64,000 bases of DNA from Amycolatopsis balhimycina FH 1894 (GTDB lineage Bacteria > Actinomycetota > Actinomycetes > Mycobacteriales > Pseudonocardiaceae), in NCBI RefSeq assembly GCF_000384295.1, contig NZ_KB913037.1:1032762-1096761 (forward strand), written 5' to 3'. The position numbers and the translations under genes were made by a program. This document shows, piece by piece, positions 25,929-60,991 of this stretch; within the stretch, counting starts at the first letter, position 1, and every line of letters starts with the position of its first letter. Under the pieces are notes generated by a model. It did not search any database, was not told the DNA's origin, and saw nothing but the letters and a program-made list of their open reading frames with translations.

Positions 25929-25963
25929 GTCGCGAATCCGAACGGTCCGTCGAGATTCCTGAA
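25929..25963 (+). repeat. tandem pair of 15-bp end motif, left of trio 1
   Basis: GTCGCGAATCCGAAC (25929-25943) and GTCGAGATTCCTGAA (25949-25963) are 20 bp apart. The second is identical over 14 bases to the motif left of trio 2 (51998). Confidence 0.55.
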
Positions 25964-26078
25964 CCCGCCGAGCGGGACAGTACGACATCACCCGAGTTCG
26001 TTCGCGTCCTTGGTGCCGACTGGCCGCTGATCAGCGGCTTTGTGTCCTCCGCTGCGGCTGTCGGCGTGTTGAAGTTGC

Positions 26079-26093
26079 TTCGGGATTTCTGAA
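26079..26093 (+). repeat. 15-bp end motif, left of trio 1
   Basis: TTCGGGATTTCTGAA, 46 bp before the recombinase start and 130 bp after the tandem pair. It matches the right-hand copy at 29248 in 12 of 15 bases; the match extends three bases upstream (TGC). Confidence 0.55.
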
Positions 26094-26124
26094 GTGGTTT
26101 CATCGCGTGTGATCTCATTCCAGG

Positions 26125-27222
26125 TTGAGTGAAGACAGGTGGTGTGAGTTGGCGGTCGCGGCAGTGCGGGACCTGCGGTCACATCGGCCGTCGCCCTCGG
26201 CGGATGAGCTCGAGCAGTTCGAGGTCGACGTGATGGCCGGGTTGGTGCTGGCCCGGTCTTCGGCCGGGATGGCGGACAAGACCATCCGTGGCGAGCTGAG
26301 CAACCTGGAGCAGATCCGGGACTGGTTCGGACGGCCGCTGTGGGAGATGGAACCGTCCGATGCGGACGTCTACTTCGGACGCGAGCTGCGGAAGGCGCCG
26401 AGCGGGACCCGGCTGGCGCGGGCGAGCGCGCTGTCCCTGTACTTCGAGTTCCTGGAGTTGCGGCACAAGGTCGAGCTGCACGCGATGACCGGCCGGGTCG
26501 TGGAGTGTCCGCTCGACGAGGTGAACCGGCCCCGCGGCAACAAGAACGCGAAGCTGCGCATCCCGCCGCTGGAGTCCGAAGTCCGCACCTTGTTCACGGG
26601 GTGGGCAAGAAGTCTCGCGGACTGCCGGAAGTACGCCCCGACGGCCCGTAACTACGCGGCGGCGCGGTTGATGGCCGATGTCGGGCTGCGCATCAACGAG
26701 GCCCGCCACCTCGATCTGGACGACATTCGGTGGGAACTGGGCCGCTTCGGGAAGCTGCACGTCCGCATCGGCAAGGGCGCGCGAGGTTCCGGGCCGCGGG
26801 AGCGGATGGTGCCGCTGCTCAACGACGCCGGCCGCACCTTGCGCTGGTACATCGAAGACGTGTGGGGCCAGTTCGACGACGATCACACCCGTCACGGCGC
26901 GCCGCTGTTTCCCTCCGAGCGCCGCCACACGGACCGGTCGCGTTGCCGGGTCAGCTACAACGCGCTGCGGGTCGGGCTGGTCGAGGCAACCGCCGAGCAT
27001 CTGCCGTCGTGGGCGGGGCGGCTGACGCCACATGTGCTGCGGCACTATTGCGCTTCGCAGCTCTACTTGGGCGGCGTCGATCTGATCTCCATTCAGGAGA
27101 TGTACGGCCACGCTTGGGTTGCCACCACGATGAAGTACGTCCATGTGCAGCGCAGCCGGATCGAGGACGCCTGGATCGCCGGGCAGAAACGCGCTGCCGC
27201 GCGGCTGGAAGGGCTGATGTGA
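26125..27222 (+). CDS. tyrosine recombinase of trio 1
   Basis: 365 residues. A core-binding domain at about 25-125 and a catalytic domain with R189 (VGLRINEARHL), H303-x-x-R306 (TPHVLRHYCAS), H329 (MYGHAWV) and Y338 (TMKYVHVQ). It is a paralogue of the recombinase at 52064, sharing blocks such as LTPHxLRHYCASxLY and RIPPxxxEVxTLFTxW. The TTG at 26125 is taken as start but the ribosome site is weak (CCAGG); a start a few codons later is possible. The next gene begins directly after its stop, so the trio is one transcript. Confidence 0.85.
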   Translation: MSEDRWCELAVAAVRDLRSHRPSPSADELEQFEVDVMAGLVLARSSAGMADKTIRGELSNLEQIRDWFGRPLWEMEPSDADVYFGRELRKAPSGTRLARASALSLYFEFLELRHKVELHAMTGRVVECPLDEVNRPRGNKNAKLRIPPLESEVRTLFTGWARSLADCRKYAPTARNYAAARLMADVGLRINEARHLDLDDIRWELGRFGKLHVRIGKGARGSGPRERMVPLLNDAGRTLRWYIEDVWGQFDDDHTRHGAPLFPSERRHTDRSRCRVSYNALRVGLVEATAEHLPSWAGRLTPHVLRHYCASQLYLGGVDLISIQEMYGHAWVATTMKYVHVQRSRIEDAWIAGQKRAAARLEGLM

Positions 27223-27549
27223 ATGCGGTGGAACCTGCGGCTGGCCGCCGCGAATCGCGGCATCTGGCAGGCATCCGACCTGCAACGCATGCTGGCCGAA
27301 CGCGGCCTGGTCGTCTCGCTGGGCAAAATGTCGAATCTGTGGTCCGGACAGCCGGCGTCGATCAAGCTCGCCGATCTGGAGGTGATCTGCGCGGTGCTGG
27401 GCTGCGAGGTCGGCGAACTGCTGATCCCGGAACCGGAAACCGTGCCGCAGCCCGAGACTGCCGCGTCCGATCAGTCGGTCGCAGGCGAACGCCCGACGCC
27501 GCGTGTGGTGCCGCGGCGACGAGATGGCCGATCGCTTCCCCCGACGTGA
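27223..27549 (+). CDS. small Cro/C1-type HTH protein of trio 1
   Basis: 108 residues. Residues 1-70 form an XRE-like helix-turn-helix of the HTH_26 type: WNLRLAAANRGIWQASDLQR, LVVSLGKMSNLWSG and KLADLEVICAVLGCEVGELL. A basic, proline-rich tail follows. The ATG directly follows the recombinase stop. Its partner in trio 2 (53151) shares MRWNLR, SxGKMSxLW, LEVICAVL/LDVICAVL and the final SLPPT/SVPPA, so the pair is homologous throughout. It may repress the trio or direct the recombinase to its sites. Confidence 0.8.
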   Translation: MRWNLRLAAANRGIWQASDLQRMLAERGLVVSLGKMSNLWSGQPASIKLADLEVICAVLGCEVGELLIPEPETVPQPETAASDQSVAGERPTPRVVPRRRDGRSLPPT

Positions 27550-27552
27550 TCG

Positions 27553-29241
27553 GTGGTCGCCCGCGACGGCTGCGGCCGGAAGATCCCTCGTGCGGTGACC
27601 AGCTGCGCGGAGTGCTTCGCGTGGGGCGAAACGCACGCCCAGGGCGTGTGCCTGGCCTGCTACAACTTCTCCGCGCCGCACTTCGGGCACCACGTCGGTG
27701 ACTGCGGCGCGTGCGGCCGCCGGATACCGCTGAAGCAGGGGTATTGCCGGCTGTGCTGGTTCCAGGCTCGGGAAGATCGCGCCGTCGCCGCCGAAGACGC
27801 GCGCTCCCGCGTCGTACTCGCCCCCTACCTCCCACGCGTGCGCTGCCAGCAACTGTTCTTCGCCGGGATGACCAAACGCCGCGGCCGCCCGCGCACCACG
27901 CCCCGCCGTTACGGCGAGAAGGGCCGACCCCACAAGACTCCGCCGACTCCGCAGGTGCGTCCGGTCAGCACCGGAACGCAACTGGCGCTGGTGTCCGCCG
28001 AGGACCTTCCGCGCAGCTTTGCGGCCGTGCGGTTCGACCTGCGCTCGGCACCCGCACCAGATAATCCATGGCTGGCCTGGGCGCTCTACCTCGCGCATGC
28101 CACCGCCGAGGCGCGCGGCTGGTCGCCGATCGCGCGCCGGGCGATGCAGCGCACGCTGGTGCGTCTGCTCGCCGACTACGACGACGGTGATCTCGTCAAG
28201 GCATCCGAGGTGCGGGCGATCGCGTTGCGCTTCTGCGTAAACGTCAACAACGCGACAGACATCCTCGACCGCATGGGCATCCTGATCGAGGATCGCACGC
28301 CCACCTTCGAGCTGTGGCTGGAGGCGAAACTCGAGGGCCTCGCCCCGGGGATCGACGCGCCGGTCCGCGACTGGGTGCGCGTCCTGCGCGACGGCGGCCC
28401 GCGCAGCCGTGCCCGACACCCGGACACCGTGTGCGCCTACCTGCGCAGTGTGATGCCCGCCTTGCGAGACTGGACCACCCGCTACGACCACCTGCGTGAA
28501 GTGACCCACGACGACGTGCTCGCCTACCTTGATCCGCTGCAGGGCAGTGCCCGGGACAGCACCGTGACCGCACTCCGTTCCGTGTTCACCTGGGCGCGGC
28601 GAAACGGGGTGATCTTCCGCAATCCCGCCACCCAAATCCGACTCGGAAAACGCGCGCACCGGATCTGGCAGCCCTTGACCGACGCCGACCTGGCCGACGC
28701 GGTCGCGGCGGCCACGACACCACAAGCACGGCTGTGCGTTGTCCTTGCCGCCGTGCACGCCGCTCGGCCGGGCCAGATGCGCGCACTGAAACTCGACGAC
28801 ATCCGCCTCGGCGACCGGCGACTCACCATCGCCGGAACCACCCGGCCACTCGACGAGCTGACCCACCGCGTTCTGCTCGACTGGCTCGATCACCGGCGCG
28901 GCCGTTGGCCGCACACCGCCAACCCGCATCTGTTGGTCAGCAAGGAAACCGCCTTGCACCACGGTCCGGTCAGCGCCACCTGGATCCTCGACCTTCGCGG
29001 CCTGCGCGCAACCCTGGAACGGCTGCGCATCGACCGGCAACTCGAGGAAGCACTCACCAGCGGCGGCGACCCACTTCGCCTGGCGACCGTTTTCGGGATC
29101 TCCCACACCGCCGCGGTGCGCTACGCCGTGAACGCCCTGCGACTGCTCGAGGACGATCATGCTGCCGCGCCCTCGGATCCCTTGCGAACCCGAGCATCCA
29201 ACCCTGACAATGACCCAGGTGCGTGCTCGGGTTCGGTCTGA
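27553..29241 (+). CDS. zinc-ribbon protein with degenerate recombinase-like C-terminus, trio 1
   Basis: 562 residues. The N-terminal ~75 residues carry paired Cys motifs (TSCAEC, GVCLAC, GDCGACGRR, GYCRLC), likely zinc ribbons. The rest looks like a tyrosine-recombinase scaffold: a core-binding-like part (YDHLREVTHDDVLAYLDPLQ) and a catalytic-like part (AVHAARPGQMRALKLDDIRL; FGISHTAAVRYAVNALRLL). The LRH box is missing, so catalysis is doubtful. It is homologous to the 760-residue protein at 53462 but lacks that protein's first zinc block. The GTG at 27553 follows the HTH stop by three bases. The 3' end overlaps the convergent methylase gene by 85 bases. Confidence 0.7.
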   Translation: MVARDGCGRKIPRAVTSCAECFAWGETHAQGVCLACYNFSAPHFGHHVGDCGACGRRIPLKQGYCRLCWFQAREDRAVAAEDARSRVVLAPYLPRVRCQQLFFAGMTKRRGRPRTTPRRYGEKGRPHKTPPTPQVRPVSTGTQLALVSAEDLPRSFAAVRFDLRSAPAPDNPWLAWALYLAHATAEARGWSPIARRAMQRTLVRLLADYDDGDLVKASEVRAIALRFCVNVNNATDILDRMGILIEDRTPTFELWLEAKLEGLAPGIDAPVRDWVRVLRDGGPRSRARHPDTVCAYLRSVMPALRDWTTRYDHLREVTHDDVLAYLDPLQGSARDSTVTALRSVFTWARRNGVIFRNPATQIRLGKRAHRIWQPLTDADLADAVAAATTPQARLCVVLAAVHAARPGQMRALKLDDIRLGDRRLTIAGTTRPLDELTHRVLLDWLDHRRGRWPHTANPHLLVSKETALHHGPVSATWILDLRGLRATLERLRIDRQLEEALTSGGDPLRLATVFGISHTAAVRYAVNALRLLEDDHAAAPSDPLRTRASNPDNDPGACSGSV

Positions 29242-30260
29242 ACCTGCTTCGGTTTTTCTGAACTTGAGCGGGTTCGGGGCTCACGGAACACGACGACGTC
29301 CTCGTGAGCGATCAGGTGCAAGGGCAGGCCGGCGTCGCGCTGCTTGCGGATGAAGTCGCGTTGGAAGAAGCTGCCGCGCGTGACCAGCTCGGTGTCCGCA
29401 ACCCGGGCCAAGAGGGCCACGCACCGCTCGACCGGGATCAAGCCGGCAGCAGCGCCGCAGGCGACCACCTGCGACGGAAGGTCGACCAGCTCGGCGTGCT
29501 CGCGCCACGGCCGGACCGTGATCGCCACGTGGCCGCCCGGGCGTACGACGCGTGCACAGGCGGTCAGGATGCGGGTGAAACCTACGAGCAGCCGGTGGTG
29601 CCCGATGTTGGCGAGGTTGCCGCGGTCGAGTGCGCTGCCGTAGCGGTAGTGGCGTTTGCTGACCTTGTCGATGCCGGGCTCCCGGTTCGTGTTGACCAGG
29701 CCGTGCACCGACGGCCCATACGGTGGCGAGGTGACGACCAGCGCGACCTGGCCGACGTACTCGGCGGGCAGCAACCGTGCGAGCTGGCGGGCGTCACCGC
29801 GGACAACCTGGCCGTCATGATCGTGGCCGCGCTCGCGGGCGAAGCGCAGGTTCGCCCGGGCGATGTCGGCCCAGTGCGGCTCGTACTCGACGCCGACGGC
29901 GCGGCGGCCGAGGTCAATCGCCTCGATCAGGGTGGTGCCGATCCCGCACATCGGGTCCAGCACCACCTCCCCCGGTTTGGTGTAGTGCTCGATGGCGTGC
30001 GCGGCGACGGCGGGCAGCATTTTGGCCGGGTGCGCGGTCGACTCGGGCACGTACCGGCCTTTGCGCTGCGCGGCCGGCGAGGCCTGCGCGGTCGCCCACA
30101 CTGACACCGGCAGATCGCCGAAGTCGGCGGGCGGGGTGGTGTCGAGGGCGTCGATGAACGCGCGGGAAAGCGGCATGGTCGGCTCGTCGGCCGAGGACGA
30201 CGCGGTGTTCGGCGGCGTGGTGGTCATGGCGGTGCACGTGCCTTTCGGTCGGCTGGTCAT
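29157..30260 (-). CDS. DNA methyltransferase (N6-adenine/N4-cytosine type)
   Basis: 367 residues. The SAM-binding motif I is VLDPMCGIGTTLIEA and the catalytic motif IV is TSPPYGPSVHG, as in amino-methylating DNA methylases of the DPPY/SPPY class; ANLRFARERG and VRPGGHVAITV fit motifs between and after. There is no obvious target-recognition insert and no restriction partner nearby, so it is probably an orphan methylase that protects the element or regulates it. Its start overlaps the preceding gene's stop by four bases. The 3' end overlaps the trio 1 gene tail-to-tail. Confidence 0.82.
   Translation of the reverse strand: MTSRPKGTCTAMTTTPPNTASSSADEPTMPLSRAFIDALDTTPPADFGDLPVSVWATAQASPAAQRKGRYVPESTAHPAKMLPAVAAHAIEHYTKPGEVVLDPMCGIGTTLIEAIDLGRRAVGVEYEPHWADIARANLRFARERGHDHDGQVVRGDARQLARLLPAEYVGQVALVVTSPPYGPSVHGLVNTNREPGIDKVSKRHYRYGSALDRGNLANIGHHRLLVGFTRILTACARVVRPGGHVAITVRPWREHAELVDLPSQVVACGAAAGLIPVERCVALLARVADTELVTRGSFFQRDFIRKQRDAGLPLHLIAHEDVVVFREPRTRSSSEKPKQVQTEPEHAPGSLSGLDARVRKGSEGAAA
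29232..29262 (+). repeat. 15-bp end motif and a shorter neighbour, right of trio 1
   Basis: TTCGGTTTTTCTGAA at 29248-29262, preceded at 29232-29242 by a contracted TTCGGTCTGAA that contains the trio's stop codon. Same orientation as the left copies. Confidence 0.5.
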
Positions 30261-31135
30261 CGGAGGTCTTCGGGCTGCGTGGCGTCGGCGTGGGCTTGGG
30301 CGAAGACGAGGACGTCGCCGTGCGCCCGCGTGTGCGTCGTCGGCGCGGCGGGTTCTCGGCCGCCGCGCGCACCGTCGGTTCGGTCCGTCGCGGTGGGCGG
30401 CTGTAGGCGGCCGTTTCGGATGGGGGTGTGGAGGGTGACGATGTGCTGGAGGTAGAGGAGGTCGGCGTTTTGCCCGGCCGCGATCATCGGGCCTGACGGG
30501 TCGGTCAGCCGGCCGCTCGACCAGTCGCTGTAGGTGTAAACGGCGAGGATGCCGCCGAAGGCGAGGACCTGAGCTGCCGCGAGCGCCAGCGTCTCGACCG
30601 AGCCGTCGGCGCCGCGTTCCGGCGGCAGCGACGTGATGACCAAGTCGACTCGCTCGACAGCCGCGACCGAGGCTGACGTCGTCGCGCCGCTCGTGGACGC
30701 CTCGTCCGTGGTCTGCGATTCGAGCTTCGTGATCGCGGGGTGGCGACCGAGCGCGTGCACGGCATCAAGCGCAGCGTCCAGTTCGCCGACGTGCTCTGCG
30801 CGGCTCGCGGCCTCCTCAGCGGCCGGCCATGGCGCGAGCAGGACCCGGGCGCCGGGTGCCGAGAAGCTGGTCGTGATGGTCTCGATGATCGGCACCGGCC
30901 AGGTGGCTGCCGGGTCGATCGGGTCGGGCCCGGCGGTCCACACCGTCGGCGGAATCGGTGCCGGCTCGCGGGTGGCGGCCGGTCGTTTCGCGGAGCGGCG
31001 GGTGCGAGCGCTCGAGCCGGCAGGGTCGGGTGCGCCTGGGTACGGGATGCCGTTGGTGGGCCGGGTGCGCGGTGGGCGGGTCGAGCCGTCTCGATTGGAC
31101 GGCCGGTTGGCGGCGGACGGCGGACGTCGAGTCAC
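30257..31135 (-). CDS. methylase-associated Rossmann-like protein
   Basis: 292 residues, read with a GTG at 31135 because GGAGGT lies seven bases before it; a GTG at 31189 in the same frame has no ribosome site. A basic, proline-rich N-terminus is followed by blocks that mimic a methylase core: PVPIIETITTSFSAPGARVL then LLAPWP, and VDLVITSLPPERGADGS, in which the SPPY-like position reads SLPP. AQVLAFGGILAVYTYS resembles a late Rossmann strand. It is translationally coupled to the active-looking methylase, so it is likely a degenerate partner subunit. Function beyond that is unknown. Confidence 0.6.
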   Translation of the reverse strand: MTRRPPSAANRPSNRDGSTRPPRTRPTNGIPYPGAPDPAGSSARTRRSAKRPAATREPAPIPPTVWTAGPDPIDPAATWPVPIIETITTSFSAPGARVLLAPWPAAEEAASRAEHVGELDAALDAVHALGRHPAITKLESQTTDEASTSGATTSASVAAVERVDLVITSLPPERGADGSVETLALAAAQVLAFGGILAVYTYSDWSSGRLTDPSGPMIAAGQNADLLYLQHIVTLHTPIRNGRLQPPTATDRTDGARGGREPAAPTTHTRAHGDVLVFAQAHADATQPEDLR

Positions 31136-31452
31136 GAGCGGAACCTCCGGAGGCGGGTCACCGACGGATCGAGTCGGCAGCTTCTGCACGGTCGCCGCCT
31201 AACTCCGGGAACGAGGTCGCCAAGAGACACCGTCACGCCGGATCCGTGTTTTCCGTCCGGCGGCCGAACCTCCGTGGCGAAGTCCGAGCAGGTCTGCAGC
31301 CAGATCTCCCCATAATTTCGAGGCCGGGGTGCAGGCGTGAAACGGCTTTGAAGCGGCCTTGGCACGCCTCTGACCTGGTCTTGAAGCGGTTTTGAGGCGC
31401 CCCGACGGGCTTCCTGGCGACGTCACCTTTCCGCTCGCTCAGGAGTGCCGCC
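31136..31452. promoter_or_regulatory. 317-bp divergent region with 33-bp-spaced direct repeats
   Basis: This separates the leftward methylase pair from the rightward conjugation operon. Two related direct repeats, around TTGAAGCGG at 31348-31356 and 31381-31389, extend to GGCTTTGAAGCGGCCTTGG (31344-31362) and GGTCTTGAAGCGGTTTTGAG (31377-31396). The 33-bp period is close to three helical turns, as for a dimeric operator. TCAGGAG precedes the ATG at 31453. Confidence 0.5.
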
Positions 31453-32406: not shown

Positions 32407-32891
32407 TCTCGCACCGCCCCGGTCATCACACACCCGCCCGCCGACCGCCGAACCGGCGCTACCACCGCACGACGGCTCGAGTTCCAGTTCACGCGACGAG
32501 CTGCCGCCAGACCCGTTCTGTGCTGAAAGCTCCGATCTCTCGTGTGCGATCGCGTCGTCGCCGGGTCATGGTGCTCGGCTGCATGCTGGCCGCCGCCGCG
32601 CTGCTGCTCGGTGGTTCCGCGGCGCACGCGGAGACCGTGCAGTACGTCGCGCTCGCCCAGTCCGTCGATCAGGTCCTGTCGAATATCCGCTCGTGGATCA
32701 TGGGCATTCTCGCCGGCGTCGCGCTCGTGTTCCTGACCATCGGCGGGCTCCGCTACCTCCTGGCGTCCGGCGATCCGGGCGAGATCGAGAAGGCGAAGGG
32801 CGCGTTCAAGGCCGCCGGGATCGGGTTCGGTCTCGCCGCGCTCGCGCCGCTGGTCGTCGAAATCCTCAAGACGATCGTCGGCGGGGTGTAG
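32397..32891 (+). CDS. VirB2/TrbC-like conjugative pilin
   Basis: 164 residues. A basic N-terminus of about 55 residues leads to a long signal-type hydrophobic stretch (VMVLGCMLAAAALLLGGSAA) ending HA-ET, then a mature part with two membrane helices (NIRSWIMGILAGVALVFLTI; GIGFGLAALAPLVVEIL) joined by a charged turn, the VirB2/TrbC layout. It would form the transfer channel's pilus or inner-membrane pore. GGAGG seven bases before the ATG at 32397 sets the start. Confidence 0.75.
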   Translation: MRLISHRPGHHTPARRPPNRRYHRTTARVPVHATSCRQTRSVLKAPISRVRSRRRRVMVLGCMLAAAALLLGGSAAHAETVQYVALAQSVDQVLSNIRSWIMGILAGVALVFLTIGGLRYLLASGDPGEIEKAKGAFKAAGIGFGLAALAPLVVEILKTIVGGV

Positions 32892-32894
32892 ACG

Positions 32895-35087: not shown

Positions 35088-35100
35088 GGTCGCGACGCCC

Positions 35101-37937: not shown

Positions 37938-37981
37938 AGGCGTCCGCGGAACCACGTGGTGCGGGTCTGCCGTCGTGCCCC

Positions 37982-51442: not shown

Positions 51443-51457
51443 AACAGCGTCCCTGGC

Positions 51458-51865: not shown

Positions 51866-51978
51866 GGCGTCCTCCTCCGGTGTTCAGGGCTCCAGTGCAT
51901 GAAATGCCGCGGGTTTGCTCGGCGACCTCAGCCCCAGGTCCGGCCCTTGACCTGGTGGAACGGGGTTCACCCGATCGC

Positions 51979-52032
51979 GTGGAGATTCCGATCGAAGGTC
52001 GAGATTCCTGACGAGATGCCGATGTTCTTGAC
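51979..52032 (+). repeat. triple 15-bp end motif, left of trio 2
   Basis: GTGGAGATTCCGATC (51979), GTCGAGATTCCTGAC (51998) and GCCGATGTTCTTGAC (52018) form a tandem array with 19- and 20-bp steps. The middle copy matches the one at 25949 in 14 of 15 bases. Confidence 0.6.
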
Positions 52033-52063
52033 AGATCCCGTCTCCCGATGAACAGGGGTACCC

Positions 52064-53137
52064 GTGACGCTGGCTGAGGTGCGGTCGTTGGGGTCCGCGC
52101 GGCCGTTGCGCACCGCTCAGGAGTTCGAGGACTTCGAGCAGGAGCTGGTGGATCAGTTCGCCCTCGCGCAGGTCGGTGCTGGAGTGACCGATGGCGTCGT
52201 GGGGTCGTATCGGTCGGTGGTGTTCGAGTTCGTGCGCTCCATGAGCCGTCCGGTGTGGACGACACGACCGGAGGACGTCGATCGATTCCTGGCTGATCAG
52301 CGCAAGCGGGGCCGGGCGGCGTCCACTGTGTACTCCAAGGCCGGCACGTTGGCCGCGTTCTTCGACTTCCTGGTCGTGCGCTACCAGGGCGACATCCACG
52401 CCTTGACGGGACACGTGCTTGAACAGCCTGTCGATGAGTTCAACCGGCCCTCGAAGCCGGCCTACATAGCCGCACGGATACCGCCTTCGCAGGACGAAGT
52501 CGAAACCCTGTTCACCGCGTGGCGCGACTCGCTGCCCGACGCCCGAAAGTTCCTGCCAGCCGCACGGGACTACATGGCGGCTTCGTTGTGGCGCCGGGCG
52601 GGCTTGCGGATCACCGAGTCGCTGATGCTCGACATCCGTGACTGGCGACCTGACTTGGGCGAGCACGGCAAGGTACATGTGCGGTTCGGCAAGGGGAGCC
52701 GTGGCCGTGGCCACAAGCCCCGCCTGGTGCCGGCGATCAACGAGGTCGACGCGTTGCTGGAGTGGTGGCTGACCGACGTGCGCCACCAGTTCGGGCCGGA
52801 CTGGGCGGACCCGGATGCCCCGCTGCTGCCCAGCGAGCGCCACGACCGGGACACCGGCTTGTGCACGCGAGTCGGCGACGACGCGTTGCGCTCCGGGCTG
52901 GCCGGCGCGGTGAGCAGGTGGCTTCCCTCGTGGACGGGTCGGCTGACACCGCACGGGTTGCGGCACTATTGCGCGTCCTCGTTGTACATGCGCGGGATGG
53001 ATCTCAAAGCTATACAGGAGATTCTCGGTCACGAGTGGCTTTCGACGACGACTCGGTACATCCACGTCCATGCCAACCACGTTGAGCACGCGTGGGAAAA
53101 GGCAAACCAGCGAGTGGCGTCCCGGCTCGGGCAGTAA
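52064..53137 (+). CDS. tyrosine recombinase of trio 2
   Basis: 357 residues, paralogue of the one at 26125. Catalytic set: R182 (AGLRITESLML), H297-x-x-R300 (TPHGLRHYCASS), H323 (LGHEWLS) and Y332 (TTRYIHVH). The GTG at 52064 has AGGGG upstream. It opens a rightward trio placed inside the leftward tad operon. The HTH gene follows after 13 bases with GGGAGG. Complete and apparently active. Confidence 0.88.
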   Translation: MTLAEVRSLGSARPLRTAQEFEDFEQELVDQFALAQVGAGVTDGVVGSYRSVVFEFVRSMSRPVWTTRPEDVDRFLADQRKRGRAASTVYSKAGTLAAFFDFLVVRYQGDIHALTGHVLEQPVDEFNRPSKPAYIAARIPPSQDEVETLFTAWRDSLPDARKFLPAARDYMAASLWRRAGLRITESLMLDIRDWRPDLGEHGKVHVRFGKGSRGRGHKPRLVPAINEVDALLEWWLTDVRHQFGPDWADPDAPLLPSERHDRDTGLCTRVGDDALRSGLAGAVSRWLPSWTGRLTPHGLRHYCASSLYMRGMDLKAIQEILGHEWLSTTTRYIHVHANHVEHAWEKANQRVASRLGQ

Positions 53138-53150
53138 GGGAGGTATTGCG

Positions 53151-53465
53151 ATGCGGTGGAATCTGCGGATGAAGGCGGCTGAGGCGGGGATCTGGAAGTC
53201 CACGGAGATGCGTCGCCGGTTGGCCGACGCCGGGTTGGAGATCAGCGCGGGCAAGATGTCGGCGCTGTGGACCGGCACCCCGACCACCATCCGGCTGGAC
53301 GACCTGGACGTGATCTGCGCGGTGCTGGCGTGCGAACCGACCGACCTGTTGCTGTGCGAGCCGGAGAAGGTCGCGGCACGCAAGCCGACCAAGACGGTGG
53401 AGGCGACCGGCGGCGCGGTCGTGACACCGCGGTTGGGGCGGCACCGGTCGGTGCCTCCGGCGTGA
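53151..53465 (+). CDS. small Cro/C1-type HTH protein of trio 2
   Basis: 104 residues, homologous to the protein at 27223: MRWNLRMKAAEAGIWKSTEM, ISAGKMSALWTG and RLDDLDVICAVLACEPTDLL form the HTH. The tail is again basic and ends RHRSVPPA. GGGAGG eight bases before the ATG at 53151 sets the start over longer readings. Its stop overlaps the GTG of the zinc-ribbon gene (GTGA), so translation is coupled. Confidence 0.82.
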   Translation: MRWNLRMKAAEAGIWKSTEMRRRLADAGLEISAGKMSALWTGTPTTIRLDDLDVICAVLACEPTDLLLCEPEKVAARKPTKTVEATGGAVVTPRLGRHRSVPPA

Positions 53466-55744
53466 CCAAGCGACCGTGGCCGCGGGCCTGCCGCGTGTGC
53501 AGCGTGCGGCCGGTCAAACATCGCCAATCCGACTACTGCTACACCTGCCAGCCCGGCGGCCCCGTGACCCCACCGCCGTGTCAGCGCTGCGGAACGACTG
53601 AGAACTACTACAGCGCGGGCTTGTGCACTCGCTGCCATCGGTTCTCGCCGTTGACCATCGACTCGTGCGATGACTGCTACGCCTGGGGCGCAACCCGCAC
53701 ACACAAGTGGCTGTGTCACGGCTGCCGCGGCTGGCGGCAGCGCCGCGCGGTCGGCGACTGCCTCACGTGCGGCCGGCATGTGGCCGTCGACCCGGTGCTG
53801 CGCGCGTGCCGGCTGTGCTGGCGGCAGGCCGACCTGCTCGGCACTGACGACATCACCACCGCGGTCCAGAACGGGCACCAGCTGTTCTTCGCCGACCTGT
53901 TTCGCAGCCGAAGAGGAAAAGCCACCCACCCCGGACCGCCTGGCCAGCGTCCCGGCCCGACCGCACGGTTCGGCACCGCCGGAACCCGTCCGCCAGAAGC
54001 GCGGCAATGGACGATCTTCGACGCCCTGCGCCCGAACACCACCACGACCCCGCGGCCCTGCACCCGCTGCGGCCAGCGGCCGGTCAAGCACCACCAGGCC
54101 GAGTACTGCTACCCATGCCAGCCCGCCACCCAGGTGACACCGCCGCCGTGCAGCAAATGCGGCTCGCCCACCGACTACTACACCGCCGGGTTGTGTATCC
54201 GCTGCTACCGGTTCTCGCCGCTGACGGTGGACTCTTGCCCGGACTGCCACGCCTGGGGCACCCGCCGGGGCAACAACTGGCTGTGCGAGGGCTGCCGCGC
54301 CTGGCGTCGCAACCATCCCCACCTCGGCACCTGCGGAATGTGCCGACAAAGCCGCCATATCAACGACGACGGCATCTGCCGGCTCTGCCGCAAGCAGCCG
54401 CTCTGGCTGCCGGACACCGCACGAGCAGAACTTGCTGAGCACGTCCGGCGTTGGGGACACCAGCTGTATTTCGCCGACATGTTCTCCGGACTCGGCGTCC
54501 GTGTCGCCCGAGCCGCCGCAGCCCAACGGCGTCGCCTGCTCATCACGCACCCGATTCCGCCCCGGCACCCCGTACGCCACCAGCAATTGGCCGGCTTCAA
54601 TCTCCCCCGAGACCTCCGCGCCGGCCGCGAGCACGGTTTCCCTCCACCCGCCGATCCCGAGTTGGTGACCTATTTGGACACGTGCGTCACCGAACACGCG
54701 GCACGCCACGGCTGGGACGGGAAGGTCACCACCCGCACCCGGATGGGATTGCACATCCTGCTCGGGTTGCAGGACACTTCCGGTGCAGCCATCAACGCCA
54801 CCGATGTCATTGCCCTGTCCTGCTTGCGTGTTCCGGTGCGCCCGATCCTCGATGTCCTGACCGCGGTCGGGTACCTCCACGACGACCGCGTCCCCACCAT
54901 CGAACGGTGGTTCGCCCACAAAACCGCCGAGCTGCCCGAAACCATCGTGACCGACCTGCAGCTCTGGTTCGACGTCATGCGACACGGCCACACCAGCCCA
55001 CCCCGCAGCAAACCCCGCGCTCCACGGACGGTCCAGTCCAAGCTGCGGTGGGCACTGCCCGCCCTGCACGCCTGGGCCGAAGCCGGACACGAGCACCTGC
55101 GGGAAATCACCCGAGATCAGGTGCTCGCCGTACTGCCCGCCTCCGGCACGCCCCGGCACACCATGCTCCAGGGGCTGCGGTCGCTCTTCCGGCTGCTCAA
55201 GGTTCACAAGCGTGTCTTCGTCAACCCGACCGCACGCATCCCCGTCGGCCGGCTCACCGGACGTATTCCGTTGCCCGCCCCGGTCGACCGTATCCGTGAA
55301 GCCCTGGCCGACGACGATCCCACCCGCGCCGCGATCGCCGCGTTGGTGGCCTTCCACGCCCTGGCGTCCGGACAGCTGCGCGACCTGCAGGTCACTGATG
55401 TCTACGACGGGCGGTTGCATCTGGGCGACCGCAGCATCCCGCTGGCCTACCCGGTGCGCGACCGCCTGCGGATCTACCTCGACTACCGCGCCGCCCGCTG
55501 GCCCGCCACAGGGAACCCACACCTGTTCATCCACTACCGCAGCGCCAACCACATCGGCCCCGTCCAGATCGAATGGCTGGCACACCGCTTGGGCCTGCCC
55601 ACCCAGAGCCTGCGGGAGGACCGCATCCTGCACGAAGTCCACGCCACCGGCGGCGACATCCGCCGACTCTGCGACCTGTTCGGCCTGTCCGTCGCGGGCG
55701 CCGAGCGCTATGTCGCCGTATTCGAGCCCTCCGACCCGAACTGA
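53462..55744 (+). CDS. zinc-ribbon protein with duplicated Cys block and recombinase-like C-terminus, trio 2
   Basis: 760 residues from a GTG that overlaps the HTH stop. Two long Cys-rich blocks are duplicates of one another: PVKHRQSDYCYTCQP, PPPCQRCGTTENYYSAGLC and TIDSCDDCYAWG near the start, and PVKHHQAEYCYPCQP, PPPCSKCGSPTDYYTAGLC and TVDSCPDCHAWG about 190 residues later. About twenty CxxC-type pairs are present. The C-terminal ~350 residues resemble a tyrosine recombinase without the LRH box (HLREITRDQVLAVLPASG; FGLSVAGAERYVAVF). It is the counterpart of the 562-residue protein at 27553. It probably binds DNA as an accessory factor. Confidence 0.75.
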   Translation: MTKRPWPRACRVCSVRPVKHRQSDYCYTCQPGGPVTPPPCQRCGTTENYYSAGLCTRCHRFSPLTIDSCDDCYAWGATRTHKWLCHGCRGWRQRRAVGDCLTCGRHVAVDPVLRACRLCWRQADLLGTDDITTAVQNGHQLFFADLFRSRRGKATHPGPPGQRPGPTARFGTAGTRPPEARQWTIFDALRPNTTTTPRPCTRCGQRPVKHHQAEYCYPCQPATQVTPPPCSKCGSPTDYYTAGLCIRCYRFSPLTVDSCPDCHAWGTRRGNNWLCEGCRAWRRNHPHLGTCGMCRQSRHINDDGICRLCRKQPLWLPDTARAELAEHVRRWGHQLYFADMFSGLGVRVARAAAAQRRRLLITHPIPPRHPVRHQQLAGFNLPRDLRAGREHGFPPPADPELVTYLDTCVTEHAARHGWDGKVTTRTRMGLHILLGLQDTSGAAINATDVIALSCLRVPVRPILDVLTAVGYLHDDRVPTIERWFAHKTAELPETIVTDLQLWFDVMRHGHTSPPRSKPRAPRTVQSKLRWALPALHAWAEAGHEHLREITRDQVLAVLPASGTPRHTMLQGLRSLFRLLKVHKRVFVNPTARIPVGRLTGRIPLPAPVDRIREALADDDPTRAAIAALVAFHALASGQLRDLQVTDVYDGRLHLGDRSIPLAYPVRDRLRIYLDYRAARWPATGNPHLFIHYRSANHIGPVQIEWLAHRLGLPTQSLREDRILHEVHATGGDIRRLCDLFGLSVAGAERYVAVFEPSDPN

Positions 55745-55849
55745 CCGTCGCGCACAGATCATCATCGCCGCTTCGCCAGAAGCCCTGGCAACTGTTGACT
55801 GCCAAGGCATCATCGAAATGATGCGGACGATCTGACAAGGACGGTGACA

Positions 55850-56368
55850 GTGAACCTCGCGACGAGCGCCACTACAGCAGTGGTCACATTGCTGGGCGTC
55901 ATACTGGGCGGATGGTTGACCACTCGCAACCAGGAACGATTGTGGCGACGAGATCACGCACGTCAATGGCGCGACATCCGGCTGTCGACCTACAACGAAT
56001 TCGTCTTTGCATATCGGCAGTACATCGCCTTCGCGCTCGACGCCGACGCGATCATCTCCGCTTCCCCACACCCGTATAAGCCCGACGAGATGATGCCTTA
56101 CTTCGATGAAGCCGGTCGACCCTATCGCGAGAAGCTCGAAGCAACGATCATGGCCGTAAGGCTCGTGTCGGCGCGCCGCGAAACTGCTGACGCCGCTAAG
56201 GAACTCGTCGATTCCGCTCGTCGCATAGCTGCTGCACGGGCCACGAGAACCGGACAGAACGTTCCGACAGAATTCTTCGACAGGATGTGGCAAGCCCAAC
56301 ACAAGTTCATGGTAAGCGCGCGCCAAGAACTGGGCTTGTCGAATATCTGGCAAGACACCGAAGAGTAG
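55850..56368 (+). CDS. small membrane-anchored protein, cargo of trio 2
   Basis: 172 residues. One N-terminal membrane helix (ATTAVVTLLGVILGGWLTT) is followed by a basic stop-transfer stretch (RNQERLWRRDHARQWRD) and a helical soluble part. I know many small actinomycete proteins of this layout without assigned function. The GTG at 55850 is preferred to 55844 because AAGGAC then lies nine bases upstream. It follows trio 2 on the same strand and resembles the protein at 57126 in layout. Confidence 0.6.
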   Translation: MNLATSATTAVVTLLGVILGGWLTTRNQERLWRRDHARQWRDIRLSTYNEFVFAYRQYIAFALDADAIISASPHPYKPDEMMPYFDEAGRPYREKLEATIMAVRLVSARRETADAAKELVDSARRIAAARATRTGQNVPTEFFDRMWQAQHKFMVSARQELGLSNIWQDTEE

Positions 56369-56528
56369 ACCTCCCCTGTGCCATCTCGTCCTCCCGGGCA
56401 CTTCGTCCAGGACCCATCGAACGTCAACGCAAACCGCCGCGCCACGAACGACCGTCGGCGCAGCCACGCGCCGGGTCTGGGTTCCCGAACCCAATGGCAG
56501 AGATACGCTCTTCGACAAGGTCGACACC

Positions 56529-57005
56529 TCAGTTCCCACCAGTCGGCCCTTCAGAATTCGCGAACTCACGGGATACTTCGGTGACTCCGCGCTGGGGGTG
56601 GGCTGAGCCGCTGCCATGGGCACCGATCGACGGGATACCGATGAGCGACAGCAGCTGCGTGCGCTGGCTGGTCGTGACGGTGACGGTCACCGTGTCGGCC
56701 GTGGCCGTCACCATGCCCGTGACGCCGACGCCGGCGAGGTACCGGCGCGCGAGACCGTCGGCTTCCGCGGGCACCAGCCTCAACGCGCCGGTGGCCCGGT
56801 AGGCAGCGAGGTCGATCGCTTGCGCGCCGGCGCGTGCGGCGGATTCTGCCTGGCCGGTGGCTCGGACCTTCGCGGCGAGGGCGAGGCCGCCGTCGAGCCC
56901 GAGGCCGGCCAAGGCCATGAGCCCGAGCACCAGCACGACGAGGAACGCCGACACCTGACCTTCGTCTGCTCGCCACCAGCCACAGGGCCGGCGCCGAACA
57001 GCCAC
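56529..57005 (-). CDS. TadG-like pseudopilin/pilus assembly protein
   Basis: 158 residues. WWRADEGQVSAFLVVLVLGL then MALAGLGLDGG is the hydrophobic N-terminus typical of TadE/TadG, followed by ALAAKVRATGQAESAARAGA and a beta-rich TVTVTVTTSQRTQLLSLIGI part. The GTG at 57005 is the best start but has no visible ribosome site, perhaps because the insertion at 57126 removed it. The tail REFANSEGPTGGN is written with codons AAT-TCT, rare here, and matches the tail of the TadE at 60512. It lies between two rightward insertions. Confidence 0.7.
   Translation of the reverse strand: MAVRRRPCGWWRADEGQVSAFLVVLVLGLMALAGLGLDGGLALAAKVRATGQAESAARAGAQAIDLAAYRATGALRLVPAEADGLARRYLAGVGVTGMVTATADTVTVTVTTSQRTQLLSLIGIPSIGAHGSGSAHPQRGVTEVSREFANSEGPTGGN
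56550..56564 (-). repeat. 15-bp end motif, right edge of the trio 2 block
   Basis: On the minus strand TTCGCGAATTCTGAA, inverted relative to the copies at 51979-52032. It lies within the last codons of the TadG-like gene. Confidence 0.5.
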
Positions 57006-57125
57006 CGCCGTCGAAGCTGCGGCAGACTGAACAGGACGAAGGTCGCGTGCCGGTGACAGCTCTCCGCTCGTGCTCGGCGGACGAAGCGGCGCAGGACCGC
57101 CTCTACCGGACGCGGAGGGGAACGC

Positions 57126-57566
57126 ATGCCGTACTGGTGGCAGATCGCGACTTCGAGTGCAGCAGGGGCGTTGATCACACTTATCGGCGTATTCGTCGGT
57201 GCGGCTCTGACTGGCCGAACCCAGCGGCGTCTGTGGAACCGCACGAAGCAGATCGACAGCTGCGCCACCATCCTCGCTGAGGCAACTCGCATCAGCCATG
57301 CGCTGGCTGCCAAGTGGCGGCGAGGAACGCCGATCGAGTGGGTGACGTGGAACCAGGCGCTTGCGGCTGTGTGGCTGATCGGTGAGCCGGAAGTCGTCGA
57401 GAAGGCGTTGAGCATCGACAAGACCTTCTGGATCCAGAACGACCGGGTCAACCGGGGCGAGATCACGGATGATGCCACTATGGTGTCTACGGGCCGCACA
57501 GTGCTTAGCGAGACACGAAGTCGGCACGAACCGCGCGAAACTGCAGAGAACGAACAAACCCTGTAG
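57126..57566 (+). CDS. small membrane-anchored protein inserted in the tad operon
   Basis: 146 residues. One membrane helix (SSAAGALITLIGVFVGAAL) followed by GRTQRRLWNRTKQID and a helical soluble part, the same layout as the protein at 55850, though sequence identity is low. GGAGGGGA precedes the ATG. It is read against the tad genes on either side, in a 626-bp gap. Function unknown. Confidence 0.6.
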   Translation: MPYWWQIATSSAAGALITLIGVFVGAALTGRTQRRLWNRTKQIDSCATILAEATRISHALAAKWRRGTPIEWVTWNQALAAVWLIGEPEVVEKALSIDKTFWIQNDRVNRGEITDDATMVSTGRTVLSETRSRHEPRETAENEQTL

Positions 57567-57631
57567 GCCCGGCCGGTGGAGACCGGAGGGGTCGTCGACC
57601 CAAAGATCAAGGTGCAGCAGCGCGCCGTCCA

Positions 57632-58120
57632 TCAACTCCACCTCTTCCCGTGCTGCGTCGCCGAGGCGGCTGTGTGAGCGGCCCCCGCTCTGAAGGTGTC
57701 GATGACCTCGCTGGCCGTGGTGCTGAGCGTCCGGCTGCCGGGGACACCGAGAACGAGCGCCTGGCCGAAGTCGACGGTGCAGCGGACGGTGACGATGACG
57801 GTGCTGCCCGGGCGCCCCGAGGTCATCGTGCTGACCGCGGGGTCGCGGCAGACCAGCCCGGCGTGTGCCAGCGCCGAGCTGGCGGTCGCCTGGGCCGCGG
57901 CGACAGCTGCCGCCGGCGTGCGCTGCAGGCTCGCGGCGCGCGCGGCTTGGTGGGCGACGTCGTCGAGCCGCAGCCGGGCGTCGACGCCGCGGTGGACGAC
58001 CACGGCGACGAACACCAGCAGCATGACCAGGACCGGCGCGATCAGGATCGCCTCGACGGTCACCGACCCGCGCTCGGCGCGCCACCAGCCGACGCCCCGG
58101 CGGGGCTGTGCCGCGGTCAT
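57632..58120 (-). CDS. TadE-like pilus assembly protein
   Basis: 162 residues. [20 protein letters not shown] then [19 protein letters not shown] is the TadE motif and membrane helix; a periplasmic part with two Cys (LVCRDP, VRCTVDF) follows. The ATG at 58120 overlaps the stop of the upstream gene (ATGA), which decides against the start at 58150. It is a minor pseudopilin of the Tad (Flp) system. Confidence 0.78.
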
Positions 58121-58992
58121 GGAACCGGCTCCGTGGCCGGCAGCTCCCACGGGAACCGTCCAGCGCCTGTCAGGTCGCGGGCCGCGGTGACGTACGCGAA
58201 GACGACCCTCGGCAGCTCCTCGGCGACCTCGACGATCAGGCCGATCGACGCGGCGCGCAGCTCAGCCTCGACGGCGCTGGTGTGCTCGACGAGCTCGGCG
58301 TGACGAAGCTTGGCTTCCCATTCCCGGGTCAGCGTGACACAGCCCTGGAGGTGGAACAGCAGCTCGCTGAGCAGAGTGTCGAATTCGGCGATCGCCGTGG
58401 CGGTCGTGGTCGCGAGGTCGGCTTCGCCTGGCATCGCGACGAGCCGCGCGGCGTGCCGGCGAGCAGGCGCTGTCCGGATCAAGCGTGTCAAAGCGTCCCA
58501 CACCGCTTCGTGGGCTCGGCCGGGCAGCTCGGGGTCGATCCAGTCGCGTGAAGCCGTGGCATGGAGCTCGCCGGTGAGATCGATCAGGAGCCCGGCCGTG
58601 CGGTGCGCAGCTGGGCCGAGGTCGAGGAAGTCGTCACTGCGGAGGAAGAACTCGCCGGGAGATCGTTCCAGGGCGCAGCGACGTCCGTGCTGGTGATCGG
58701 TCGCGAGGCAGGCCGCGGTGATGCCCGCGTCGCAAAGGCCGCTCAGCAGCAACGCGATGGCGCCGCCGACCGCGAGCGCGCCGCCGAGAGTCTCGGCGGC
58801 GCCCCCACCCAGTACCAGCGCCAGGGTCAGTAGCCCGGCCACGGAACGAGTCGAGAAAAGCCGCGTGAAGAAAGCGCGGTTGACCCACCTTCGCCAGTAT
58901 TTCGTTGTGACAGCGGGATTCCACAGCATGACGTCGGGGCCGTCGGCGAAGTCGCCAACGGTCACCGCTTCCGGCTTTTCCAGCAGTGACAT
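58117..58992 (-). CDS. tad-operon membrane protein, unknown
   Basis: 291 residues. Two adjacent membrane helices near 50-90 ([40 protein letters not shown]), then a helical cytoplasmic part. I do not recognise the family, but genes of this type are regular neighbours of actinobacterial tad pseudopilins. GAAGGGAGGGGAA precedes the ATG. The MFS cargo lies directly upstream on the other strand, so its original operon promoter has been displaced. Confidence 0.55.
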
Positions 58993-59120
58993 GGTTCCCC
59001 TCCCTTCGATCAGGCGTCCGTCAGAACGCTTACAGATTCGCTTAGGCGGCAGAAGCGCTGGTCATACCGACTCGCAGGCAAGCGCGGGTTCCGGCGATTG
59101 CGAGCAGTACCTGATCGTTT

Positions 59121-59135
59121 GTCGGGATTTCCGAC
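59121..59135 (+). repeat. 15-bp end motif, left edge of the MFS cargo
   Basis: GTCGGGATTTCCGAC, about 105 bp before the MFS start. It matches TTCGGGATTTCTGAA (26079) in 12 of 15 bases and is inverted relative to the copy at 60551. Confidence 0.45.
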
Positions 59136-59240
59136 GGACTGTCGACTATTGTGACGCAGGGTCACCGCCAGTGAACCGAAGCCGTGACGTCCTGGCCGGG
59201 AGTCTGCAGCGAGGGCCTCGATACGGCATCGGCCAGACTG

Positions 59241-60488
59241 ATGACCATGACCGCCCCTGCTGAGCACCCCGACGCCACGACCGACGAGAAGCGGTGGTTG
59301 ACCCGAGGCGTCGCCGGAATCGGCACTGCCAGCCTGCTTGCCGATGTCGGCCACGAGGTACCCACCGCGCTGCTGCCGAGTCTGCTCACCAGCACCCTCG
59401 GCGCACCCGCCGCCGCGCTCGGACTGATCGAGGGCATCTCCGACGGTCTGGCCGGCGCCGCCCGTCTCGCGGGTGGTGCACTGGCAGATGACCCCGCTCG
59501 CCGCCGCAGCATCGCGGTCGGCGGCTACGCCAGCACCGCCGTGCTCGCCTCGCTCACCGGTGCGGCCACCGCCGTCTGGCAGGTCGGCATCCTCCGAGCC
59601 GGCGCGTGGGCCGCTCGCGGCCTGCGCGTTCCCGCCCGCAACGCCCTGCTTGCCGACGTGGTCCACCCCAAAGCCTACGGACGCGCCTACGGCTTCGAAC
59701 GCATGATGGACAACTTCGGCGCGATCTTCGGTCCGCTGCTCGCGCTCGGCCTGGTGGCCGCGGTCGGCGTGCGCTGGGCGATTGGCCTGTCCGTTATCCC
59801 CGGCATCCTCGCCGCCGTCGCGATCGTCTACGCCATCCGCCACACCCCGGCAGCCTCGGCGAAAGCCCGGGTACCGTTGCGTATCCGGATCAAGCCCGTC
59901 CTGCGCGGCGACCTCGGGCGGCTCATGGGCGCGGTCACAGCGTTCGAGGTCGGCAACGTCGCCGCGACTCTGCTGATCCTGCAAGCCACCCAACTGCTCA
60001 CCCCAGGCCATGGCACTGACACCGCCACCACCCTCGCTCTGGCGCTCTACACCCTCTACAACATCGCGGCCACCGTCGCCTCGATCCCGGCCGGACGCTT
60101 CGCGGACCGTCTGGGCACCCGCGGCCCGATCCGAGTCCTGACCGCCGGAGTCGCACTGTTCGCGTTGGCGTACCTCGGCTTCGCCGTCACCGGCACCAAC
60201 CTGGTTGTGCTCGCGCTGCCGTTCCTCGCCGCCGGGCTGGCCATCGGCTGTGTCGAGACCGCCCAGCACGCCGCCGTCGCCACACTCGCCCCAGCTGAGA
60301 TCCGCGGCTCGGCGTTCGGGCTGCTCGCCACGATCCAAGCAGGCGGCAACTTCGTCGCCAGCGCGATCACGGGAGTGCTCTGGACATTCGTCTCGGCGCA
60401 GGCAGCGTTCTTCTATCTCACGGCATGGATGGTGCTCGCGCTGGTCGGGCTGGCACTGGCATCCCGGCGACACAGCACAAGTTCCTGA
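59241..60488 (+). CDS. MFS transporter, cargo inside the tad operon
   Basis: 415 residues with about twelve membrane helices. DVGHEVPTALLPSLLTSTLG with LGLIEGISDGLAGAARLAGG, then RVPARNALLADVVHPKAYGR and GFERMMDNFGAIFGPLLALG, mark the efflux-type MFS group. The ATG at 59241 (or 59247) is chosen; the ribosome site is weak. It is the only transporter in the tad segment and is read against it. Its product might export a toxic compound or metal; the substrate cannot be told. Confidence 0.8.
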   Translation: MTMTAPAEHPDATTDEKRWLTRGVAGIGTASLLADVGHEVPTALLPSLLTSTLGAPAAALGLIEGISDGLAGAARLAGGALADDPARRRSIAVGGYASTAVLASLTGAATAVWQVGILRAGAWAARGLRVPARNALLADVVHPKAYGRAYGFERMMDNFGAIFGPLLALGLVAAVGVRWAIGLSVIPGILAAVAIVYAIRHTPAASAKARVPLRIRIKPVLRGDLGRLMGAVTAFEVGNVAATLLILQATQLLTPGHGTDTATTLALALYTLYNIAATVASIPAGRFADRLGTRGPIRVLTAGVALFALAYLGFAVTGTNLVVLALPFLAAGLAIGCVETAQHAAVATLAPAEIRGSAFGLLATIQAGGNFVASAITGVLWTFVSAQAAFFYLTAWMVLALVGLALASRRHSTSS

Positions 60489-60511
60489 ACCGAAGCGGTC
60501 GATCGCGCTCA

Positions 60512-60991
60512 TCAACGACCACCACCGCTCAGGTTCCCGCCCGAGACCGCTCCAGAATTCGCGAACCCTGAAACATCCGGAACGAACCTTTCGACTTCGC
60601 CTGCGGTTTCGGCGTGCACGTGCAGGTGCACGCCGGGCAGGACCGCAACGACCTCGCCCCGCACGCTGGCCGACGCCGAGGTCGCCGTGCGCTCGACGTC
60701 GATCTGCGAGGACCGCAGCGGCCCTTGCGCGAGTTGGTCCAGCAGCTGCCGGCCGGCGGCGTTGCCGGCCGCGGCCGTGCCGTTCTGGACGCGAGCCGCG
60801 GCGAGCGCTTCCGCAGCAGCTGCTTGAGCGACGTGGGTCGCGTGTGACCAGAGGGCGAACTGGATGATCGCCAGCAGGGCGAGCAGCAGGAGGGGTGTCG
60901 CGATGACCAGCTCGGCCGCGACGGCGCCGTGCTCTCCCGAGTGGACGCGACGAGCGCGCCAAGCCATTGCATTGACCGGATTCGCTGGCAT
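60512..60991 (-). CDS. TadE-like pilus assembly protein with altered tail
   Basis: 159 residues. HSGEHGAVAAELVIATPLLL then LALLAIIQFALWSHATHV is the TadE signature; the periplasmic part is Ala-rich with VRGEVVAVLPGVHLHVHAE. The tail GFANSGAVSGGNLSGGGR matches the TadG tail and again uses AAT-TCT. The ATG at 60991 is two bases after the stop of the small gene upstream; an ATG at 60967 is an alternative. Its 3' end lies 24 bases from the convergent MFS stop. Confidence 0.75.
   Translation of the reverse strand: MPANPVNAMAWRARRVHSGEHGAVAAELVIATPLLLLALLAIIQFALWSHATHVAQAAAAEALAAARVQNGTAAAGNAAGRQLLDQLAQGPLRSSQIDVERTATSASASVRGEVVAVLPGVHLHVHAETAGEVERFVPDVSGFANSGAVSGGNLSGGGR
60551..60565 (-). repeat. 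15-bp end motif, right edge of the MFS cargo
   Basis: On the minus strand TTCGCGAATTCTGGA, one base from the copy at 56550. It lies inside the 3' end of the TadE gene. Confidence 0.5.

Follow-up and report, generated by a model that had tools for sequence, protein, structure and literature searches.

Two end signals and a recombinase-free transporter cassette point to a tyrosine-recombinase transposon family in Amycolatopsis balhimycina

A stretch of 64,000 nucleotides from the chromosome of Amycolatopsis balhimycina FH 1894 (contig NZ_KB913037.1, positions 1,032,762 to 1,096,761; hereafter the window, numbered from its first letter) carries a degenerate 15-bp motif that recurs around two gene trios, each made of two recombinase-like genes (A and B) and a small helix-turn-helix (HTH) gene (H), and around a lone gene for a major facilitator superfamily (MFS) transporter. 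This raises the question of whether the motif marks the ends of mobile elements and whether the MFS gene, which has no recombinase of its own, could be moved as their passenger. The window lies inside the single 10.86-Mb contig of the chromosome, in a region that resembles an integrative conjugative element (ICE): it has VirB4-like and TraD-like genes together with a minus-strand tad-pilus cluster. Both trios and the MFS gene are read from the plus strand. We consider it highly probable that the motifs belong to the left and right ends of a tyrosine-recombinase transposon family, in which the trios are autonomous members and the MFS block a non-autonomous one. Related genomes and loci are referred to below by G and L numbers and plasmid relatives by H numbers.

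Two signals in the element ends

A preliminary description of the window, made from its letters, had listed eleven copies of one motif. All eleven stretches are present, and the seven best stand out from the background while the weak copies do not. With a leave-one-out matrix each of these seven ranks between 1st and 8th among about 128,000 positions. A matrix of all seven finds 9 matches scoring at least 14 bits, where 40 dinucleotide shuffles average 1.2 and never exceed 5; no excess is left at a threshold of 8 bits (60 matches, shuffle mean 47.8, maximum 75). As this matrix was built from picked sites, independent scans carry more weight. The pattern KTCGNGAWTYCYGAM occurs exactly at nine places in the whole 10.86-Mb genome, five in the window, three in a second ICE at 8.76 Mb and one elsewhere, and with one mismatch allowed at 75 places compared with 19 for the reversed pattern. 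A scan of 80 genus genomes for the right-end pattern gives 17 matches, spread over 12 of them, and none for its reverse; near one of these matches (G031, L096) there is neither a trio nor a tad gene. Of 64 related left ends, some of them near-duplicates, 63 match the left motif at 12 or more of its 15 positions (simple shuffles reach a mean of 3.75 of 64 and a maximum of 9), and in 37 it lies exactly 102 bp from the edge.

The motif resolves into two signals. The first is a 15-bp imperfect palindrome, KTCRNGATTYCYGAM, which lies about 102 bp inside the left end; the second, CTTCAGAATTCGYGAAC, occupies the positions 28 to 12 bp from the right end. Every element has one of each, including trio 1, where the left signal is at 26079 and the right at 29247-29263. 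The idea that the motifs mark element ends thus holds in part: the right motif does lie near the right edge, whereas the left one is internal and the true left edge is TgtCncaAnTgcCgtGaGTTCg.

The boxes of both ends were read from a family sample. A genome-contig scan gave 361 relatives of recombinase A, the best 80 of which were kept as loci, and 32 left and 39 right ends remained for alignment after removal of near-duplicates. Counted with the edge as +1, left ends begin with TgtCncaAnTgcCgtGaGTTCgt, followed by CCnGG near +57, GGGTTC near +68, the palindrome GTCGgGATTcCtGAc from +103, TATTnnTGAC from +128 and TGAAC from +154, and A starts near +169. Right ends contain AACC near -89, CttgaGTTC from -50 and CTTCAGAATTCgtGAACtCacGg from -28. 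In draft genomes, contigs of about 3.4 kb that consist of the element only display these ends directly. The 39 elements in which both ends score well are 3363 to 7615 bp long; according to an end scan, the elements at four of the loci (L205, L240, L251 and L186) measure 6.9 to 7.6 kb, of which 3.6 to 4.4 kb separate B from the right end.

The tandem copies had been likened to the arm sites of tyrosine recombinases, and this part of the proposal mostly fails. The stretches at 29232 and 52018 coincide with other conserved boxes of the ends and the one at 51979 is a weak copy, so that we reject the arm-site reading: these are mostly not repeats of one end motif. The pair at 25929/25949, placed earlier at the edge of trio 1, lies outside it. 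We assign it to the ICE and reject it as an element end, because L163 and L164, both empty sites, have it without any trio. The same pair (25929-25963, copies 20 bp apart) is also found in the second ICE (L058), and L162 has a similar one; it is perhaps an operator of the ICE that resembles that of the trio. An additional model, in which a pre-existing attB of about 23 bp carries the outer arms, was also rejected, as the empty sites lack such a sequence.

The preliminary description had itself allowed that some left copies are operators of the HTH proteins. In its strict form, this alternative makes the left palindrome only the operator through which the HTH protein represses its own operon, with no part in recombination and with its likeness to the right end due to chance, and we put its chances just short of even. 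It fits the constant distance of 67 bp between the palindrome and the start of A in most of the members listed, the conserved TATTnnTGAC box that follows, which is like a promoter or operator, and the presence of similar motifs beyond the element, in ICE DNA (25929/25949) and at empty sites. What it does not predict is that the palindrome is kept at +102 in the MFS cassette of the window, which has no HTH gene, and at the aligned position in the cassette of G066. The distance from the left edge is likewise fixed, at 100 bp in trio 1 and 102 bp in both trio 2 and the MFS cassette, but intact elements cannot separate a position fixed from the edge from one fixed from A.

Occupied sites, empty sites and targets

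The trio 1 element spans 25979..29274 on the plus strand (3296 bp, edges plus or minus 2 bp) and is delimited by an identical second copy and by empty sites. Its left palindrome TTCGGGATTTCTGAA lies at 26079..26093, 100 bp from the edge, and is followed on the same strand by recombinase A (26125..27222, 365 amino acids, Phage_integrase), the HTH protein (27223..27549, 108 amino acids, HTH_26) and the recombinase-like B (27553..29241, 562 amino acids). The right end, CTTCGGTTTTTCTGAAC plus 11 bp (29247..29274), agrees with both the identity edge of the second copy and the family alignment. That copy sits in the matching slot of the second ICE of the same genome (L058, 8.755-8.775 Mb), which is related and diverged: a run of 3297 bp (25978-29274) is 100% identical to the copy at 8.76 Mb, while the left flanks are 79-92% alike over about 250 bp (in 50-bp bins) and the right flanks 72-88% alike over 0.85 kb, except for two bins of 41% and 58%. 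In L163 and L164 the slot is empty and exact but for a 2-bp ambiguity, with no duplication.

The trio 2 element with its cargo (51896..56576, plus strand, 4681 bp) is inserted antisense in the 3' end of a tadG-like gene, its ends being set by family alignment. It opens with the left edge TGCATGAAATGCCGCGGGTTTGCTC (51896..51920) and the palindrome GTCGAGATTCCTGAC (51998..52012, +102), continues with A (52064..53137, 357 amino acids), the HTH protein (53139..53465, 108 amino acids), B (53462..55744, 760 amino acids, with a Cys-rich N-terminal part) and a cargo gene (55844..56368, 174 amino acids, no Pfam family), all on the plus strand, and closes with CTTCAGAATTCGCGAAC plus 11 bp (56549..56576), which also matches the right-end pattern. 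The host gene (56529..56990, minus strand, named by its relatives) ends in the element-encoded tail ...SREFANSEGPTGGN; with the flanks rejoined it reads ...GVTELEP and then stops. By eye, tadG is split at one place by trio 2, by its relatives in L059, L060 and L062 and by a deleted element in L090, and the slot is empty in L065, L066 and L068. G066 carries a relative of the cargo gene in the same slot, free of a trio and with no recognisable right end. Between tadG and tadE1 lies a small gene (57126-57566) that is absent from G066 and whose N-terminus, by eye, resembles the cargo gene at 55844. The preliminary description saw no end site at this gene, and we agree that by eye there are no element ends there.

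In G038 one element occupies both the ICE slot between tadG and tadE1 and the corresponding slot of another tad cluster, whose proteins share 34-38% identity with those of the first. In six genomes, our own included, the second site is empty and of one length, and in two of them it also agrees letter for letter. These two, G040 and G061, read GACCTCATGACCG followed directly by GGCTCCG, and in G038 the element (TGTGGG...GGTGGTT) stands between these same two sequences; comparison of copy 2 with its empty sites shows neither duplication nor loss, and the other four genomes differ in letters only. Two such empty-site comparisons place the right junction 11 bp past the right-end motif.

We also considered that the trios are fixed regulatory parts of the ICE and that relatives differ by rearrangement or gene conversion. 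Trios do stand repeatedly beside transfer genes, but they occupy several slots in relatives rather than always one: X-tadG (L059, L060, L062), tadG-tadE1 (L065), u58117-tadE2 (L066) and tadE2-tadC (L068). Together with sharp identity edges, empty sites, copies in unrelated clusters and the 3.4-kb element-only contigs, this makes fixed parts a highly improbable explanation.

The surroundings of the family were analysed in the 48 of 80 loci with at least 3 kb on both sides. A tad or type IV secretion system (T4SS) marker lies within 3 kb in 33 of them (19 T4SS, 14 tad), and all 249 marker hits are antisense to the trio, in 33 of 33 loci (27 distinct A genes). Markers are found on both sides in 20 loci, or 15 if LysM and peptidase genes are excluded. 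A single one of 30 control loci, each 3 kb long, has a marker, and tad DNA had been used to fish for that locus. Ten of 14 plasmid relatives are between or beside T4SS or tad genes (H1-H7, H9, H12 and H16); H8 and H10 are near such genes, and H13 and H14 are not.

Not only the strand but also the reading frame of the host is biased. Of 32 junctions 22 pass a coding filter, and in 21 of these 22 the antisense host gene enters the element in one and the same frame, gaining an element tail such as ...FANSEG... (L183 and L184 are near-twins). On the right flank, GWAS is found at +7 in 9 of 26 distinct targets, and in one target at most at any other offset from 1 to 18. Read on the host strand, the signal becomes STWC-N6^, which Arg-Phe or Arg-Tyr codons can supply. 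Both orientation and frame would be accounted for by a target sequence that lies in conserved codons. The bias could instead reflect survival, if only insertions that spare the operon are seen. The position of insertions suits this view, since 14 of 24 are within 12 codons of the host stop, 13 of them at 1 to 3 codons, where the other two frames give 6 of 48. However, at L195, where an SSB-family protein is encoded beside the element, and at L201 the junctions read by eye as an ssb-like frame which is kept with no stop near; the +7 GWAS is a sequence signal; and survival alone does not explain a fixed orientation. We regard survival as rather unlikely to be the whole cause, and survival of harmless insertions may add to the pattern. 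In both L195 and L201 (near 10000-14900) the ssb-like frame is entered at Arg-Phe-Thr-Pro codons, in the same frame as in tad genes.

A transporter between two family ends

The MFS cassette (59019..60577, plus strand) consists of 1559 bp with a left end, the MFS gene and a right end, and is inserted antisense in the 3' end of tadE2. Its palindrome GTCGGGATTTCCGAC lies at 59121..59135, 102 bp from the edge, and its right end, CTCCAGAATTCGCGAAC plus 11 bp (60550..60577), follows the right-end pattern and the family alignment. The preliminary description had suspected a non-autonomous cassette here, and alignment with the family bears this out to the extent that both ends are present at family spacing with no recombinase between them. 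The MFS gene (59184..60488, plus strand) is an open frame from a GTG at +165, within 3 bp of the start of A in trio 2 at +168; an in-frame ATG at 59241 may be its true start. tadE2 (60512..60991, minus strand) acquires the element-encoded tail ...VSGFANSGAVSGGNLSGGGR, and on removal of the cassette its flanks rejoin into a normal tadE end (...ERFVPDA and stop). L060 and L068 have no insertion in this slot, between u58117 and tadE2, and in L066 a full trio fills it. That the block is a passenger cassette that has kept both ends is well supported by these comparisons.

G066 holds the same 1559-bp cassette, with a body 95% identical and flanks 81% and 89% identical. Among 80 genus genomes, the MFS gene is otherwise found only in our own and, at 64-67% identity, twice in G052 (contig C1, near 9.28 and 8.51 Mb; L263 and L264). 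Another reading takes the MFS gene for a normal gene of the ICE, flanked by end-like sites that an earlier, decayed element left behind. In its favour, the right-end motif was seen beside this MFS gene in 2 of the 80 genus genomes, both times in the same slot, and slot A of G066 has a cargo gene with no recognisable right end. Against remnants speak the spacing of both ends, the length of 1559 bp in both genomes and the frame start within 3 bp of that of A, as do the flanks that rejoin to a normal tadE end and the slot that is empty in two loci and filled by a trio in a third. We judge the remnant explanation unlikely.

A route by which elements of ends plus cargo can arise is seen in G039 (L090, slot A). 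Here a natural internal deletion has fused the start of A to the end of B, and the element retains a different cargo and an intact right end. The MFS cassette of the window may be movable in trans by the recombinases of a trio.

Recombinases, described relatives and a possible mechanism

Recombinase A has the catalytic residues of a tyrosine recombinase, with R182, K210, H297, R300, H323 and Y332 invariant in 18 of 18 sequences. The HTH gene follows A in 78 of 80 loci; the two in which none was found are L198 and L233, and L233 is at a contig end. B ranges from 505 to 766 amino acids in 70 loci, often below 611. In 47 sequences its N-terminal part has nine invariant Cys; the profile of its C-terminal recombinase domain matches XerA (E 8e-8), and R718, one Arg of box II, does not vary, nor does Tyr 750. 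Neither the His of box II nor the first Arg aligns with a position conserved in the 47 sequences, and FG stands in place of GH. B probably serves as a partner whose own catalytic activity is weak or absent.

The passages of the 2012 survey cited here (Van Houdt et al., PMC3414803) describe a recombinase pair as a class of Tn554-related actinobacterial transposons, with a recombinase of about 350 amino acids adjoining a long one of 611-828 that has a 'potential catalytic motif'. The elements in this study share the short and the long recombinase, identical copies and occurrence on actinobacterial plasmids and chromosomes: A has 357 or 365 amino acids with a Phage_integrase domain, and B has 760 in trio 2, 562 in trio 1 and 505-766 across the 70 loci. 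Table 2 of that survey lists a pair on pNOCA01 as Famint36/41 with TnpC 'none', which is very probably the trio in NC_008697. Its section 10 gives no ends, target pattern or third gene for Famint36/41 pairs, whereas we find an HTH gene after A, defined ends and recombinase-free cassettes. The third trio gene belongs to HTH_26 and lies between A and B, and the NC_008697/pNOCA01 record also has an HTH gene between the two recombinase genes.

Tn554 itself inserts without target duplication and has the gene order tnpA-tnpB-tnpC, with TnpC last, which differs from the order A-H-B. Duplication is similarly absent at G038 copy 2 and at trio 1. The account of staphylococcal Tn554 in PMC10214605 shows the same combination of one ordinary and one large recombinase with target specificity, and according to the survey (PMC3414803) Tn554 has a unique integration site, unlike the elements here. 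As outlined in PMC10214605, strand-biased circularizing elements (SEs) also have a normal and a large recombinase, terminal inverted repeats, a target preference and cargo. Their intA-tfp-intB-srap set differs from the A, H and B genes found here, where H is a 108-amino-acid HTH protein; no profile search for Tfp or Srap was made. The 6-bp donor footprint described there is also lacking, as the right outer bases are constant in copies at different targets, and we rejected a footprint model for these bases on that ground. The last four bases have an A+T content of 59%, compared with 34% in left flanks. GInt elements, as set out in PMC5385486, share a recombinase operon at one end with cargo after it, but their ginABCD operon encodes three integrases and GinD where ours has two recombinase-like genes; RIT elements, in the relevant parts of PMC3414803 and PMC8138268, share an operon of recombinase genes and have three recombinases where ours has two and the HTH protein H. 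The kind of element has thus been described already, and the ends, targets and cassettes are new to us: in the open-licence PMC literature, judged by titles and the starts of abstracts, we found no description of these ends, of tad/T4SS targets or of the cassettes.

We propose the following mechanism. An autonomous element, such as trio 1 and trio 2, comprises a left end of about 170 bp (an outer core site, GTTC boxes and the palindrome at +102), an A-H-B operon, optional cargo and a right end with AACC, GTTC and CTTCAGAATTCGYGAAC boxes. A would act as the catalytic tyrosine recombinase, H as a small HTH protein and B as a long, Cys-rich and catalytically degenerate homologue; with the help of B and H, A would join the ends into a circle, which would then insert at its targets without duplication. 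Beyond the right edge, at a distance of 6 bp, many targets carry a GAAC/GTAC-like half site, and on the host strand these half sites are often Phe or Tyr codons near the end of tad-pilus genes. Such codons would fix the antisense orientation and the reading frame, and the host protein would gain only a short new tail. In the MFS block a transporter gene takes the place of the trio, probably driven by the promoter of the trio and movable in trans by a trio with matching ends.

Several points weigh against this proposal. What the sequences show is the ends, the empty sites, the absence of duplication in the cases compared, the biases of strand and frame and one deletion derivative; the circle, the roles of A, B and H and movement in trans are inferred. 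The ends of the MFS cassette match those of the trio that L066 has in this slot at only 67% and 76% identity, and those of trio 2 at 63% and 70%, and as the cassette occupies one slot in G000 and G066 it may be a single old insertion that is no longer moving. Many family loci are related to one another, so the counts above do not represent independent events. Fifteen of the 48 full-flank loci have no tad or T4SS marker within 3 kb, some being in ssb or beside ordinary genes; in two of the marker-free loci, L251 and L256, transfer genes are 4 to 9 kb off. Trio 1 is the sole frame exception among the 22 testable junctions, 10 of 24 insertions are more than 12 codons from the stop, and the +7 half site is absent from 17 of 26 flanks. 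A wider generalisation, to a widespread actinobacterial family that travels on conjugative elements, with attachment sites at conserved aromatic codons near the 3' ends of conjugation and tad genes, antisense insertion in a fixed frame, new host tails, and cassettes moved in trans whose cargo stands in for the recombinases downstream of an unchanged promoter and a palindrome bound by the HTH protein, is one we advance tentatively and would place somewhat below even chances.

The ends, the target pattern and the empty sites make a little-characterised transposon class directly testable. They describe a mobile element that tends to make its home in other such elements, among their transfer genes and yet often sparing them, and the altered tails of TadE and TadG raise the question of whether the pili still work. 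If the cassettes move in trans, actinobacterial conjugative elements would gain a route of gene capture beside integrons and ordinary transposons.

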